A DNA stretch of 37,118 nt from a virus. Shown here piece by piece: positions 10-35,861 of the stretch. Under the pieces are notes generated by a model, which had not been told where the DNA came from, made no database searches, and saw only the letters and a list, made by a program, of their open reading frames with translations. How positions within the stretch are numbered: position 1 is the first letter of the stretch; every line of letters starts with the position of its first letter. The stretch lies in IMG/VR virus record IMGVR_UViG_3300042331_000294, positions 1-37,118 of that record; one strand, written 5' to 3'. Made by a program: the position numbers and the translations under genes.

Positions 10-41
10 CAAAAAAAGCCGAGCCCGTAATGGACTCGGCT
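10..41 (-). terminator. Rho-independent terminator of the leftward operon
   Basis: Read on the minus strand there is a 7-bp stem (AGCCGAG at 35-41 complement, pairing with 17-23) around an 11-nt loop. It is followed directly by a run of seven T residues (11-17 on the plus strand is all A). This is a textbook intrinsic terminator, and it lies just downstream of the last minus-strand gene. It does not work as a plus-strand terminator, because no T run follows on that strand. Confidence 0.8.
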
Positions 42-62: not shown

Positions 63-257
63 TTAGTGGCGATAGAGTCGGCCGTCGGTACCGACTCGGT
101 GTTCTAGGGTTGGGGGTGGGGGTGGTGTCTCCCGGACAGTGCAGGGGATGATCAGGGCCCGCTCAACGGCGGATTGGGCGGCCGCTAGGGATTGGGCTGT
201 AACTGTCCCGAGATAGGCGGGGGTGGATGCGGACGTGTAAACGTAGAAGGTGCGCAT
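63..257 (-). CDS. Small hypothetical protein, last gene of the leftward operon
   Basis: Encodes 64 residues starting MRTFYVYTS, with five consecutive prolines near residues 44-48 and a C-terminus ending RVGTDGRLYRH. I do not recognise a family. I chose the ATG at 257 because it lies 7 nt after the stop of the upstream gene. The longer open frame upstream of it only reads through that gene in another phase. No Shine-Dalgarno is visible, so translation may depend on coupling to the upstream gene. The proline codons come from C-rich DNA that is G-rich on the other strand and contains a 13-bp direct repeat (41-53 and 105-117). The intrinsic terminator follows about 20 nt after the stop. Confidence 0.55.
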   Translation of the reverse strand: MRTFYVYTSASTPAYLGTVTAQSLAAAQSAVERALIIPCTVRETPPPPPTLEHRVGTDGRLYRH

Positions 258-264
258 GGTCAGA

Positions 265-993
265 TTAGTTGAGAGCGTCCACCACGAACCCGCTTTGGTC
301 ATGCTTGGCTTTGCCTTTGGCTTTGAGACCGACAACGTAGCCAGAGCGGCCCGCCTTTGCACGACGGTCGAGAAAACGAAGATCCGTCACATCGCCGTCC
401 AATACGGGACGGTGTTTCCAGACTGCGGGAAGGGTGTCACGGAACACAACGGAGACGTTACCGCCTGCCCGTAGAACCTGTTCGCATTCGGATTCGTTGG
501 CTGCTGAGTCTCGAGAGAAGGTTACCGAGTAGTTCTGGGGGTGGAGGCCGCGTGCGTTGTCCAAAGCCTTTTTGATGCTTTTGGAATAATCGTAGAACGG
601 AACGGTTGGAAACAACTCCATTAGCGTGAGTCCTTTACTCGGTACGATTAAACGGTGGAAAGCAAGTTCCGACGTACCGTTGAGGCGGATACAAGGCAGA
701 AGGCCTTTGCGTTTTGCTCTGCGCACTAGTGCTTTGCAGTCTTCGAAAAGCTGCTCCATGAAGGCGTTGCGGTTGGTGAAGAAGAAGCGGGTTTTCTTGA
801 GGCGGGAAGCTTGGACGGAGTTAAAAGCGCCACGGCCGGCGCTGTTTAGGCAGGAAGATTTACACGTTCCCGCCCAAGGGCAAGCGTTCCCGACACCGGA
901 AAGGTCGGAAGGGGAAAGGTACAGGATGCCAGTAAGGTAGCTAAGTGACTCACCTTTAACGGTCTTTGCTGAGTTTGTTCCGAGTAGCTTCAT
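265..993 (-). CDS. Gp88-like phage protein with an N-terminal cysteine triad
   Basis: 242 residues. It resembles, from memory, a widespread but uncharacterised phage family related to mycobacteriophage Gp88. Visible hallmarks are Y-L-T-G-I-L-Y-L-S-P near residue 19 and a C-x5-C-x3-C cluster at Cys38, Cys44 and Cys48 followed by L-N-S-A-G-R-G. Further on are R-L-N-G-T-S-E-L at 103-110, F-Y-D-Y-S-K at 133-138 and D-G-D-V-T-D-L-R-F-L near 199-208. The N-terminal Cys triad and alternating hydrophobic strands suggest metal or Fe-S binding and possibly a barrel fold, but this is inference. It is the largest gene of the minus-strand early-type operon. The ATG is preceded by an A-rich leader without a Shine-Dalgarno. 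No biochemical role can be assigned. Confidence 0.75.
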   Translation of the reverse strand: MKLLGTNSAKTVKGESLSYLTGILYLSPSDLSGVGNACPWAGTCKSSCLNSAGRGAFNSVQASRLKKTRFFFTNRNAFMEQLFEDCKALVRRAKRKGLLPCIRLNGTSELAFHRLIVPSKGLTLMELFPTVPFYDYSKSIKKALDNARGLHPQNYSVTFSRDSAANESECEQVLRAGGNVSVVFRDTLPAVWKHRPVLDGDVTDLRFLDRRAKAGRSGYVVGLKAKGKAKHDQSGFVVDALN

Positions 994-1029
994 TTTTTTG
1001 GTAGTAGTAAAGGGTTGGAATGGCTGGGG

Positions 1030-1284
1030 TTATTCTGAAAGGTTCACAAACTGAAAAGCGATGTTCTCTCTTTCTTGAAGGGTTCTGAACTTTTCGGAAA
1101 GCCTAGGTGCGTTGCAAAGTTCGTATTTAAAGGCTCTTACTGAAACAAGGCTCATGTCGCATCCGCCGAAAGTGAAGGCGTCGAGAACAGCGTCGAGTTC
1201 ATCAAGTTCCTGTTCATCAAGGGATTCCATAAAATCTGATAGATTGACGTAGCTTGCTTTTAGGGATTTGGTTTTGATGCTCAT
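1030..1284 (-). CDS. Hypothetical acidic small protein
   Basis: 84 residues, rich in Asp and Glu between residues 16 and 37 (E-S-L-D-E-Q-E-L-D-E-L-D). No family is recognised and there is no membrane segment or signal peptide. Such small acidic proteins in early phage operons are often host-takeover or anti-defence factors, but nothing here proves it. The start codon follows an unusual leader made of tandem 7-nt units (ACAAACC on the coding strand) and a short A run, with no Shine-Dalgarno. The gene lies 36 nt upstream of the Cys-triad gene and is probably cotranscribed with it. Confidence 0.6.
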   Translation of the reverse strand: MSIKTKSLKASYVNLSDFMESLDEQELDELDAVLDAFTFGGCDMSLVSVRAFKYELCNAPRLSEKFRTLQERENIAFQFVNLSE

Positions 1285-1326: not shown

Positions 1327-1482
1327 TTAGGAAAGGAGTGAACGCCAGAGGAGAACGGTGCTCCAGAGAAAGAGCGCCATGACGCAAAGCGCTTCGGGAA
1401 GAGAAAGGTGAAGTTGGGAGAGCGCGAGGATGTCGGCTGTGGTGAGGGTGAGGAATCCGAGAGATAAGAGGTTGTTTTTCAT
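1327..1482 (-). CDS. Small membrane protein, hypothetical
   Basis: 51 residues beginning MKNNLLSLGFLTL. It is strongly hydrophobic, with one long or two short membrane segments (about residues 5-18 and 30-48) and an arginine near the C-terminus. The ATG at 1482 was chosen because the sequence before it (CCTAAACCC-ATG-AAAAA) closely repeats the leader of the next gene upstream (CCTAAAACC-ATG-AAAAA). The longer open frame would overlap that gene. No family is recognised. A role in superinfection exclusion or membrane modification is possible but unsupported. Confidence 0.55.
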   Translation of the reverse strand: MKNNLLSLGFLTLTTADILALSQLHLSLPEALCVMALFLWSTVLLWRSLLS

Positions 1483-1495
1483 GGGTTTAGGTTGG

Positions 1496-1666
1496 TTAAG
1501 CTTCGATGAGTTCAAAAGTGATGTCTTCTCTATCGGTTTGCGATTCAAGGTCTTGCATCACTGAGAGTGCTTCGGAGTAGGGCAGTGGGTCTGAGTAGGT
1601 CTGGGGTTCGTTCCAAGCGACGCCGGTTGTTCTGCCAGATACGATATACAAGGGGCTATTTTTCAT
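1496..1666 (-). CDS. Hypothetical protein, first gene of the leftward operon
   Basis: 56 residues beginning MKNSPLYIVSGRTTG, with an acidic C-terminal half (D-R-E-D-I-T-F-E-L-I-E-A). The shape, a strand-rich start followed by an amphipathic helix with P-Y-S-E-A-L-S-V-M, is common in tiny phage early proteins that bind host enzymes. No family is recognised. The start at 1666 is supported by the CCTAAAACC leader shared with the following gene. It is the promoter-proximal gene of the minus-strand operon and faces the divergent control region at 1667-1824. Confidence 0.55.
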   Translation of the reverse strand: MKNSPLYIVSGRTTGVAWNEPQTYSDPLPYSEALSVMQDLESQTDREDITFELIEA

Positions 1667-2338: not shown

Positions 2339-3784
2339 GTGAAAGAACTCAGTCCAGAAGAGAAAGCAGAACTGGTTATGTGCCTCGAGGAACTCCAGAG
2401 GCGCAAGCGCGAGCGCCGTTTGCTCGGTTACTACCCAGACACCGGACCCCTCAGGCGGGAGCTCTACAAGAAGCACCTAGCCTTCTTCGAGGCGGGGGCG
2501 AAGTACAAGGAGCGTCTGATGATGGCAGCCAACCGCGTCGGGAAGACCGAGGGCATCGGCGGCTTCGAGATGGCGGTACACCTCACGGGCCGGTACCCCT
2601 CATGGTGGACGGGCCGCCGGTTCGACCGGCCCATCTCGGCGTGGGCGGCAGGGGACACCGGTAAGACCTCACGGGACATCTTGCAGACGAAGCTGCTGGG
2701 ACCGGCTGGGAGTCACGGCACGGGCCTCATCCCGAAGGAAGACATCCTGCGGGTGTCGGCCAAGGCCGGTATCGCTGACGCGGTGGAAATCATCGTGGTC
2801 CGGCACGCCTCAGGCGGAGAGTCGCGGTTAACGCTCAAGAGCTACGACCAGCGTCGCGAGAGCTTCCAGGGGACGGAGCAGGACATCATCTGGCTGGACG
2901 AGGAGCCGCCATTGGACATCTACACGGAGTCGCTGCTGCGAACGATGACGAACGACGGTATGGTGATGCTGACGTTCACGCCGCTCTTGGGGATGAGCGA
3001 GACGGTGATGGCGTTCTTGAGAGACGGTGAGGTGTGTGAGCGGGCGGAGGGGACGAAGTTCGTGGGGATGGCGACGTGGGACGACGTACCGCACCTGAGC
3101 CAAAAGCAGAAGGAGGACCTGTGGTCGAGTATACCGCCCTTCCAGAGGGATGCGCGGTCGAAGGGGGTGCCGCAGCTGGGGGCAGGGGCGATTTATCCTG
3201 TGCCCGAGAGCGAGCTGGTTGTGCCTGACTTCGAGGTACCGGTGCACTGGCCGAGGGTGTTTGGGATGGACGTGGGCTGGAACAAGACAGCGGCGGTGTT
3301 TGGAGCGTTGGACCAGCAGAGTGATACGTTGTACCTGTACTCGGAGCATTACAGAGGGCAGGCGGAGCCGGCGATTCACGCGGAGGCGATAAATGCGCGT
3401 GGGCGTGGGATACCTGGGGTGATTGACCCTGCCTCCCGTGGCAGAACGCAGGTAGACGGGCAGCAGTTGTTTGTGCGCTACCGGCAGATGGGCTTGGACT
3501 TGACGGTGGCGAACAACGCGGTGGAGACGGGGATATACGACGTGTGGCAGCGGATGTCGACGGGTCGGCTGAAGGTGTTTAAGAGCATGACGAACTGGGT
3601 AGCGGAGTTCCGGTTGTACCGGCGGGACGATAAGGGTAGGGTTGTGAAGGAGAACGACCACTTGATGGATGCGACGCGGTATTTGGTGGTGAGCGGTCTT
3701 AACCGAGCGGCCTTGAGTCTGAAGAAGCGGATGCAGAAGCTCATTGACGTGGTACCGGTGATGAACTTCTTCTCGAGGAAGTAG
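2339..3784 (+). CDS. terL: Terminase large subunit (packaging ATPase and nuclease)
   Basis: 481 residues. The N-terminal motor domain has a Walker A-like motif A-N-R-V-G-K-T (64-70) and a Walker B I-I-W-L-D-E-E-P (183-190), with T-F-T-P (212-215) as the likely coupling motif. The C-terminal RNase H-like nuclease shows G-M-D-V-G-W (Asp311), V-I-D-P (Asp363) and H-L-M-D-A-T-R-Y (Asp444), a plausible metal-binding triad. It cuts and translocates phage DNA into proheads through the portal. An in-frame TAG lies only 3 nt upstream of the GTG at 2339, so translation starts there or further in. The GTG lacks a clear Shine-Dalgarno, which may keep expression low. Length is normal for the family. Confidence 0.92.
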   Translation: MKELSPEEKAELVMCLEELQRRKRERRLLGYYPDTGPLRRELYKKHLAFFEAGAKYKERLMMAANRVGKTEGIGGFEMAVHLTGRYPSWWTGRRFDRPISAWAAGDTGKTSRDILQTKLLGPAGSHGTGLIPKEDILRVSAKAGIADAVEIIVVRHASGGESRLTLKSYDQRRESFQGTEQDIIWLDEEPPLDIYTESLLRTMTNDGMVMLTFTPLLGMSETVMAFLRDGEVCERAEGTKFVGMATWDDVPHLSQKQKEDLWSSIPPFQRDARSKGVPQLGAGAIYPVPESELVVPDFEVPVHWPRVFGMDVGWNKTAAVFGALDQQSDTLYLYSEHYRGQAEPAIHAEAINARGRGIPGVIDPASRGRTQVDGQQLFVRYRQMGLDLTVANNAVETGIYDVWQRMSTGRLKVFKSMTNWVAEFRLYRRDDKGRVVKENDHLMDATRYLVVSGLNRAALSLKKRMQKLIDVVPVMNFFSRK

Positions 3785-34653: not shown

Positions 34654-34703
34654 TTGATGAAAGATTTTGCTAAAGGGCGGAGGGGAAGCGTCCGAAATAC
34701 CAA

Positions 34704-35861
34704 GTGCAACCAAAAAACCATGTGGATACTACCAAACCAACTGAAGTCACTCATCTCAGCCTCTGCACCGGATACGGAGGCATCGACCTTGGACTTGCGC
34801 GAGTTGTCAGCAACCTGCGCACGGTCGCTTACTGTGAGAGGGAAGCAGCCGCCATCGAACTCCTTCTCTCGCGCATGGAAGGCGGGCAACTTGATGCGGC
34901 TCCGATCTGGACTGATTTGCGAACCTTCCCGTGGCCAGCGTTTTCTGGACGCGTGGACATCCTCTCTGGCGGTTATCCCTGCCAGCCATTCTCATCCGCC
35001 GGTAAGCGACTCGGAGCAGACGACGAGCGGCACCTCTGGCCTGCCATCGCAGATGGCATTCGCATTCTGCGACCAAGAGTCTGTTTCTTCGAGAACGTCG
35101 AGGGACACATCACCCTTGGGCTACGGGAAGTCGTCGATGAGTTGGGAGCAATGGGTTACCGAGCGACGTGGGGAATATTCTCGGCGAGCGAAGTCGGTGC
35201 GCCACACCAGCGCAAGCGAGTGTTCATCATGGCCCACCGCGAAGGCGCGGGATTGGAAAGACACGACCGGTTGTTCGCTGGATGCGGTCAATCCAGATGG
35301 CACACACCGGAACAGGCGCGACCGGCTTGTTGGAGCGATAGCGGCGGAGATGTCTGGCCTTCCCGCCCAGGAGAGCCACAGCACGGATGGGAGCCGCCGA
35401 GAGTTGTGGCCAACACCGGACGCGACGGGAGCCAACGACGGAGTGCCATGGGAGAAGTTCGAGCAGGGGATGCAGGAGAGACGTGCGAGGGTCAAGGCAG
35501 CGGTTGCACAGGGACTGACCAAGCAGGGCAGTGGCAGGAGTGCGAACTTGTGTGCGGCGGTGCAGAACCCGCAGTGGGCGACACCTCAGAGTCGGGACAA
35601 CCGCAGTGGGGGAGCGGAACGATGGGACGACCCGAACCGGAGTCGCAACTTAAACGACCAGATTGCCACGGTTACGAAACAAAACGCAAAGCTGAATCCG
35701 AGGTGGGTGGAGGCGCTGATGGGATTGCCGATTGGATGGACTATGCAGAGTTGTGCTACGCCAGTGACAATCGGACAGATGAACTGCGAATGCTGGGGAA
35801 CGGAGTAGTGCCAGCGACCGCAGCAAGAGCGTTTGAAACCTTGATGAAAGAACTTTTATGA
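34704..35861 (+). CDS. dcm: DNA (cytosine-5) methyltransferase
   Basis: 385 residues. The catalytic motifs are present in order: motif I L-S-L-C-T-G-Y-G-G-I-D-L-G (18-30), and motif IV G-G-Y-P-C-Q-P-F-S with catalytic Cys93. Next are motif VI F-E-N-V (129-132), motif VIII Q-R-K-R-V-F (169-174) and motif X L-G-N-G-V-V-P (364-370). The stretch 175-340 is the target-recognition part and is low in hydrophobic residues, Gly/Arg/Ser-rich, with V-A-N-T-G-R-D-G and V-G-D-T-S-E-S-G. It would methylate phage DNA to escape restriction. The +1 frame is open along nearly the whole gene and also looks like a family (see the next entry). It starts 50 nt after rusA and overlaps the next gene (ATGA). Confidence 0.88.
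   Translation: MQPKNHVDTTKPTEVTHLSLCTGYGGIDLGLARVVSNLRTVAYCEREAAAIELLLSRMEGGQLDAAPIWTDLRTFPWPAFSGRVDILSGGYPCQPFSSAGKRLGADDERHLWPAIADGIRILRPRVCFFENVEGHITLGLREVVDELGAMGYRATWGIFSASEVGAPHQRKRVFIMAHREGAGLERHDRLFAGCGQSRWHTPEQARPACWSDSGGDVWPSRPGEPQHGWEPPRVVANTGRDGSQRRSAMGEVRAGDAGETCEGQGSGCTGTDQAGQWQECELVCGGAEPAVGDTSESGQPQWGSGTMGRPEPESQLKRPDCHGYETKRKAESEVGGGADGIADWMDYAELCYASDNRTDELRMLGNGVVPATAARAFETLMKELL
35137..35808 (+). CDS. Candidate overprinted protein in the +1 frame of dcm
   Basis: The +1 frame over dcm is open from 34654 to 35808. From about 35137 (first good ATG, 223 residues) it reads M-S-W-E-Q-W-V-T-E-R-R, then S-S-W-P-T-A-K-A-R-D-W-K-D-T-T (35224 on). L-W-P-T-P-D-A, W-A-T-P-Q-S-R-D and L-N-P-R-W-V-E-A-L-M-G-L-P-I-G-W-T (35692-35742) follow. 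These are hallmarks of a protein family frequent in phage genomes, often annotated as hypothetical or as methyltransferase C-terminus. No good Shine-Dalgarno is seen and the true start is unknown. It may be expressed as a second gene, reached by frameshifting, or be a conserved shadow. Confidence 0.35.
   Translation: MSWEQWVTERRGEYSRRAKSVRHTSASECSSWPTAKARDWKDTTGCSLDAVNPDGTHRNRRDRLVGAIAAEMSGLPAQESHSTDGSRRELWPTPDATGANDGVPWEKFEQGMQERRARVKAAVAQGLTKQGSGRSANLCAAVQNPQWATPQSRDNRSGGAERWDDPNRSRNLNDQIATVTKQNAKLNPRWVEALMGLPIGWTMQSCATPVTIGQMNCECWGTE

Follow-up and report, generated by a model that had tools for sequence, protein, structure and literature searches.

A near-invariant cysteine triad on a predicted radical-SAM-like barrel in the phage GP88 family

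We have analyzed a GP88-family gene of a 37,118-base virus record (the window, by which we mean this whole stretch of DNA) together with its relatives in phage and cellular contigs. Within the known GP88 family the protein is unremarkable; the novelty lies in a concrete, testable hypothesis on the chemistry of the family. Three features of the predicted model speak for an Fe-S enzyme of a radical-SAM-like kind: where the cysteines lie, a polar motif that follows strand 2, and the enzymes that resemble it in fold. The protein probably works like a radical-SAM enzyme. The fuller reading, that of a stand-alone Fe-S/SAM-type enzyme on a radical-SAM-type barrel, carried in an exchangeable counter-defence cassette, we regard as about evenly poised between right and wrong.

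The gene, its leftward cluster and its family

The window carries genes for a terminase and for a portal and coat of P22 type (Pfam). The packaging genes are transcribed rightward, and a cluster of small ORFs (63-1666) runs divergently from them, in the leftward direction. A sequence-only reading had put the GP88 gene in a leftward operon; its position and strand are as given there, and the cluster was found to hold four more minus-strand ORFs and a terminator-like hairpin (Table 1).

Table 1. Features of the GP88 gene and its surroundings in the window
Feature	Position	Strand	Evidence or remark
Terminator-like hairpin closing the leftward cluster (stem of 10 bp followed by a T run)	17..41	-	hairpin scan
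Small ORF, 64 aa, adjoining the GP88 gene downstream, last of the leftward cluster	63..257	-	
GP88-family protein, 242 aa, ATG start	265..993	-	PF17338 E 9e-39; PHROG 1617 E 1.3e-58; AF2 pLDDT 92.9
YDYSK, residues 134-138, end of beta-3	580..594	-	strand 133-137
RLNGTSE, residues 103-109, end of beta-2	667..687	-	strand 99-103
Cys48, triad position 3	850..852	-	90/90 members
Cys44, triad position 2	862..864	-	89/90 members; Tyr in L136
Cys38, triad position 1	880..882	-	90/90 members
84-aa ORF, adjoining the GP88 gene upstream; ardA position in some relatives	1030..1284	-	
51-aa hydrophobic ORF, leftward cluster	1327..1482	-	recurs in lineage loci
56-aa ORF, leftward cluster	1496..1666	-	68% identity to L015 and L016 counterparts
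Terminase large subunit, first of the rightward packaging and head genes	2339..3784	+	PF03237 E 1.4e-21

A hairpin scan over 2.4 kb returned 5 terminator-like sites versus 2.9 in shuffles, the longest stem being that at the end of the cluster. No sigma-70-like promoter was found for the leftward cluster. The GP88 start is preceded by an A-rich leader (window 994-1030, minus strand) with no evident Shine-Dalgarno, a feature that may bear on the host. Counterparts of the 84-aa ORF occur in four other loci (L001, L010, L011 and L034) at 80-83% identity. The C-terminal end of the last ORF of the cassette (window 63-100, minus strand) reads HRVGTDGRLYRH; ORFs of the loci L390 and L430, otherwise different from this 64-aa ORF, end almost alike (RVGSDGRLYRH), as if the DNA were conserved there for some other reason. 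Elsewhere in the window a DNA methyltransferase is predicted at 34654-35808 on the plus strand (PHROG 1008, E 1.7e-19).

The protein matches PF17338 (GP88) with 134.1 bits versus a curated cut-off of 24.4, over residues 4-239 and profile positions 4-229 of 230, and this is the sole Pfam family that it matches at E 1. It has in common with PF17338 and PHROG 1617 the full-length profile match, the Cys triad and the RLNGTSD and YDYTK motifs, and does not differ in kind from the rest of the family. There was no NCBIfam match, and Pfam, PHROG and NCBIfam give no function for the family. A sequence search of solved structures gave nothing credible. Among the open-access papers listed by literature searches, none concerned the GP88 family in its title or the opening of its abstract; in the Amelie paper, gp88 refers to gene numbers in cluster K phages.

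The family is widely spread. By tblastn the window protein matched 48 of 50,697 phage records, every one at less than 60% identity, and a divergent relative used as query matched 265 phage records, 235 of them from Mycobacterium phages. The hosts of GP88 phages include Mycobacterium, Pelagibacter, Stenotrophomonas, Xanthomonas, Rhizobium, Caulobacter and others. A genome collection yielded 49 GP88 contigs from diverse bacteria and a few archaea, many of them metagenome bins. PF17338 was found in none of 14 control genomes; PHROG 1392, the family of a divergent branch described below, matches the E. coli control genome.

Scans of viral contigs supplied 30 loci and then the best 80 of 574 (two of them already in the first set), a sample that leans to close relatives because only these best 80 were kept; a further locus sample, the best 80 of 584, is biased in the same way. 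From 156 homologue ORFs, three shorter than 215 aa (L016, L029, L154) and one with an odd match (L036) were excluded, leaving 153 sequences with the query, which were clustered to 90 non-redundant members; L158, whose match covers just 76 residues, was unused. All 90 members match PF17338, and 16 Pfam families in all were matched by the set at E 0.1.

The cysteine triad and the predicted fold

A conserved C-x5-C-x3-C had been noticed in the sequence. The triad and its second gap are kept in the family, x3 without exception in the 89 full triads, and the first gap proved variable: it is x5 in 10, as in the window protein (C38-x5-C44-x3-C48), x7 in 15 and, most often, x6 (64 triads). Motifs that had looked invariant in the single sequence, RLNGTS and YDY-K, are near-invariant among the 90 members. 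R103, N105, D135, Y136, S160 and D204 are present in all 90, query included, S108 and K138 in 89; position 109 is Asp in 89 and Glu in the query. No histidine occurs among the invariant or near-invariant positions of this alignment. Chance does not explain this conservation in a set drawn from both phage and cellular contigs, in which identity to the query goes as low as 31%.

AlphaFold2, run from the family alignment, gave a partial (beta/alpha)6 barrel (pLDDT 92.9, pTM 0.90). The main predicted strands (19-24, 99-103, 133-137, 155-160, 179-185 and 220-224) mostly alternate with helices, and an extra short strand is predicted at 195-199. The Cys triad lies in the loop after strand 1, before the first long helix; residues 41-60, which include two of the triad cysteines, are modelled at lower confidence (blocks of 80 and 84). 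Radical-SAM enzymes typically carry three cysteines on the loop that follows beta-1, and their GGE motif at the end of beta-2 stands in the place taken here by RLNGTSE.

Foldseek against the PDB found no match at E <=0.001 (best E 0.046); its top rows are weak ordinary TIM barrels, for example D-tagatose 3-epimerase, with spore photoproduct lyase (SPL) at row 37. When the top 1000 Foldseek entries were re-aligned with VIA-align, the first 25 of the 50 rows listed were all radical-SAM enzymes, 12 different ones at Z 6.2-4.7 with many repeat entries (SPL, viperin, RlmN), though not every entry title names the enzyme as such; the first other protein stands at row 26 with Z 4.6. The highest scores are those of the SAM methyltransferase 6fz6 (6.2), NifB (6.1), and PFL-activase, SPL and QueE (5.9 each), the remaining enzymes of these rows being viperin, RlmN, SuiB, TigE, MiaB, SkfB and TYW1; a Z of about 6 is middling, is reached by models with no clear match, and may mean just a common arrangement. 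Against viral models the GP88 family itself came first, followed at some distance by a phage protein named as radical-SAM (row 26, probability 0.51) and a DUF7227 protein (row 28, probability 0.92, E 0.03). The structure prediction and fold comparison that had been proposed thus give a TIM-type partial barrel whose top VIA-align neighbours are radical-SAM enzymes. The earlier suggestion of a metal- or Fe-S-dependent enzyme gains from the finding that a single loop behind beta-1 holds all three near-invariant cysteines, and from these neighbours, which point to such an enzyme.

GP88 resembles the radical-SAM superfamily (SPL, QueE, viperin, NifB, PFL-activase) in that its predicted fold is a partial (beta/alpha)6 barrel whose first strand is followed by three cysteines; it differs in the spacing of these cysteines and in the sequence profiles. 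The canonical motif of the superfamily is CX3CX2C; GP88 has C-x5..7-C-x3-C in 89 of 90 members (C44 is replaced by Tyr in one). Of the 16 Pfam families that the 90 members match at E 0.1, none is a radical-SAM model. With neither the canonical motif nor a profile match, the family is therefore described here as radical-SAM-like, membership not being proven. Accepted radical-SAM enzymes with spacings other than CX3CX2C exist.

The three cysteines and the invariant Asp residues would also fit a mononuclear site, and metal-dependent sugar epimerases and isomerases are among the top Foldseek rows. This would suit a TIM-barrel enzyme in which the three cysteines bind one metal, zinc or another, and which uses neither SAM nor radical chemistry. 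We consider such an enzyme rather improbable, given the 25 radical-SAM entries that lead the VIA-align listing, the lack of histidine from the list of invariant and near-invariant positions, and the placing of the three-Cys loop. As a radical-SAM-like enzyme, the GP88 protein would hold a site-differentiated [4Fe-4S] cluster on its three thiols by way of the non-canonical C-x5..7-C-x3-C motif, S-adenosylmethionine would be bound by the fourth iron and the RLNGTSD loop, and the enzyme would perform reductive radical chemistry.

The divergent branch and the DUF5131 and DUF7227 families

A divergent, PHROG 1392-type branch comprises 83 ORFs, 41 of them non-redundant. Its profile aligns with that of the main branch at E 1.8e-18, the two members tested both match PF17338, and PHROG 1392 in turn is matched by 82 of the 90 members of the main branch (best E 4.7e-10). 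The branch has the same kind of Cys loop, mostly C-x5-C-x3-C, and keeps the motif order. Its proteins are mostly longer, typically about 380-430 aa, with additional N- and C-terminal parts, and they have RWHDAGDFFS for RLNGTSD and FYAYTK for the FYDYTK of the main branch. A model of the branch (pLDDT 82.4, pTM 0.79) again finds the GP88 family first among viral models, where rows with radical-SAM or Fe-S names reach probabilities of 0.10-0.12 at most. With VIA-align its first six rows are six spore photoproduct lyase entries at Z 6.4-6.7, the next row falls to 5.3, and below row 6 radical-SAM enzymes are intermixed with ordinary barrels. SPL thus takes the top six rows for the divergent branch, whereas for the window model it is level with other radical-SAM enzymes at a middling Z.

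Two phage-borne families resemble GP88 by eye. DUF5131 (Gp37/Gp68, PF07505) has a three-Cys loop followed by SxxDLF and LTKR in a like order; its spacing, however, is C-x6-C-x2-C, and its EPLLG and GGESG motifs are not seen in GP88. DUF7227 (PF23872) has N-x-KTG, then a Cys triad, VRFGAYGDP and GYTHqW in a similar order, and differs from GP88 by an additional C-terminal Cys cluster. The window protein has no Pfam match to either family. Comparison of GP88 with DUF5131 by hhalign gave E 0.025-0.07 with a probability of about 1-2%, and 0.32 with both branches combined; 3 of 60 and 5 of 60 column shuffles scored as high. For DUF7227, represented by DUF7227-like proteins that fall under that family's cut-off, E was 0.3-0.4 and 29 to 44 of 60 shuffles scored as high. 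Common descent of GP88 with DUF5131 or DUF7227 is thus unsupported by profile comparison, and the likeness in motif order serves as a lead. Since profile homology of GP88 with DUF5131 is unsupported, the naming of two marine phage genes as 'Gp37/Gp68-like' is unconfirmed by sequence.

A DUF7227-like protein of 244 aa was also seen in the leftward cassette of a more distant locus, L427 (1778-2512, minus strand; E 1e-4, below cut-off), whose terminase is 78% identical. It has C-x2-C-x7-C, VRFGAYGNP and a further C-terminal Cys cluster, and Gordonia phages carry relatives of it close to their right end.

The prominence of SPL for the divergent-branch model, and its rank among the leading entries for the window protein, could indicate a DNA repair enzyme of the SPL kind, one that would use radical SAM chemistry to undo a lesion in the DNA of phage or host, and a phage DUF5131 protein of similar layout (H149) carries a spore photoproduct lyase annotation. 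We hold this to be unlikely: GP88 does not have the CX3CX2C spacing of SPL, a substrate cannot be read from similarity of fold, and the profile comparison that would tie GP88 to DUF5131 is not significant. A wider form of the radical-SAM-like reading would make GP88 a non-canonical radical-SAM family (C-x5..7-C-x3-C), spread by phages of diverse hosts, that installs or reverses a radical-made modification of nucleic acids or nucleotides in counter-defence, beside ArdA in the window's lineage, with DUF7227 and DUF5131 as branches of one phage-borne clan; this extension is doubtful.

An accessory cassette and its neighbourhood

In the lineage of the window the GP88 gene is accessory. Among loci with a terminase at least 96% identical to that of the window and at least 2.4 kb of sequence beyond it, 19 of 27 carry GP88; the fraction is 20/29 if the limit is set at 2.0-2.3 kb, and 16/23 when distinct 2.3-kb stretches are counted. 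None of 15 loci at 64-78% terminase identity carries it. These counts leave aside 38 of the 80 loci, which have less than 2.4 kb before the terminase and of which 2 carry GP88. Some GP88 sequences are identical to one another (L364-L366; L371 and L388; L372, L373 and L400). Among full-length lineage loci the GP88 proteins are 75-92% identical, next to terminases that are 96-100% identical. This divergence beside near-identical terminases, together with the presence and absence of the gene, indicates that the cassette is exchangeable. The gene is under purifying selection (dN/dS 0.076-0.164 in comparisons with ten relatives hand-picked within its own lineage), values that are imprecise because dS exceeds 1 in 8 of the 10 comparisons.

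In 6 of the 19 GP88 loci, which represent 4 distinct sequences, the antirestriction gene ardA lies directly upstream, with 6-30 bases between its end and the start codon of GP88; in the window this position is taken by the 84-aa ORF. ArdA is also found in 6 of the 8 lineage loci that lack GP88, two of which (L387 and L389) represent one stretch. ArdA was identified by Pfam for L392 (PF07275, E 1.1e-20), by a genome search in two records and otherwise by similarity to the L392 protein. Examples of ardA in the leftward cassettes of near-identical phages, with or without GP88, are L392:3050-3574 and L359:3079-3600, both on the minus strand. The idea that ArdA and GP88 are mutually exclusive alleles was rejected, since 6 of the 27 loci have both (Fisher P 0.09). 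ArdA was likewise rejected as a family-wide partner: it was found in 2 of 49 GP88 virus records, both of the window's lineage. None of 48 records of the divergent branch has ArdA, and the controls gave nothing either.

Another cassette protein, of 183 aa, resembles a sliding-clamp domain by eye (L358:2285-2833, minus strand). Similar proteins occur in the cassettes of L356, L384, L390, L394 and L408, all of which are without GP88, and in L356 and L358 they lie beside ArdA; the two tested, those of L358 and L384, have no credible Pfam match.

In the wider sample, no conserved operon partner was found over 90 loci (89 and the window, many of them short contigs), and the commonest neighbour cluster, whose representative looks terminase-like by eye, occurs in 11 of the 90. 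Ten neighbour proteins from 8 cellular loci, hand-picked mostly by size out of 145, comprise 7 mobile-element or DNA-metabolism proteins (a type I methylase, a specificity subunit, primase-helicases, a terminase and helicases), 1 peptidase and 2 with no family. In Mycobacterium phage Eaglepride, a Fromanvirus, the PF17338 gene is gene 88, the second from the right end, and is leftward. Downstream of it lie a SprT-like protease and DNA methylases. Phage L5 belongs to the same genus. Its leftward right-arm genes 35-89 are expressed early (PMC5712189).

The presence of ardA in the accessory leftward cassette of some close relatives argues for a product that would probably act early and for the benefit of the phage, on nucleic acid, nucleotides or a component of host defence. 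A role in host takeover or nucleic-acid modification had been proposed from the sequence. The setting agrees with it in part, through ardA 6-30 bases upstream in some relatives, the exchanged cassette and the leftward right arm of Eaglepride and L5. A non-enzymatic protein that binds a component of host defence, like the ArdA beside it, would suit an accessory gene of an exchanged cassette with ardA adjoining in these loci, yet it is the least probable of the alternatives, as the many near-invariant polar residues, several at the ends of barrel strands, look catalytic, the Cys triad is near-invariant in phage and cellular contigs alike, and ArdA is no partner beyond the window's lineage.

The GP88 gene may, judging from its place beside ardA in some close relatives, help phages to counter host defences. 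If GP88 proteins are indeed non-canonical radical-SAM-type enzymes, a large phage family would gain a testable chemistry, and another cysteine spacing would join those accepted for SAM-cleaving clusters.
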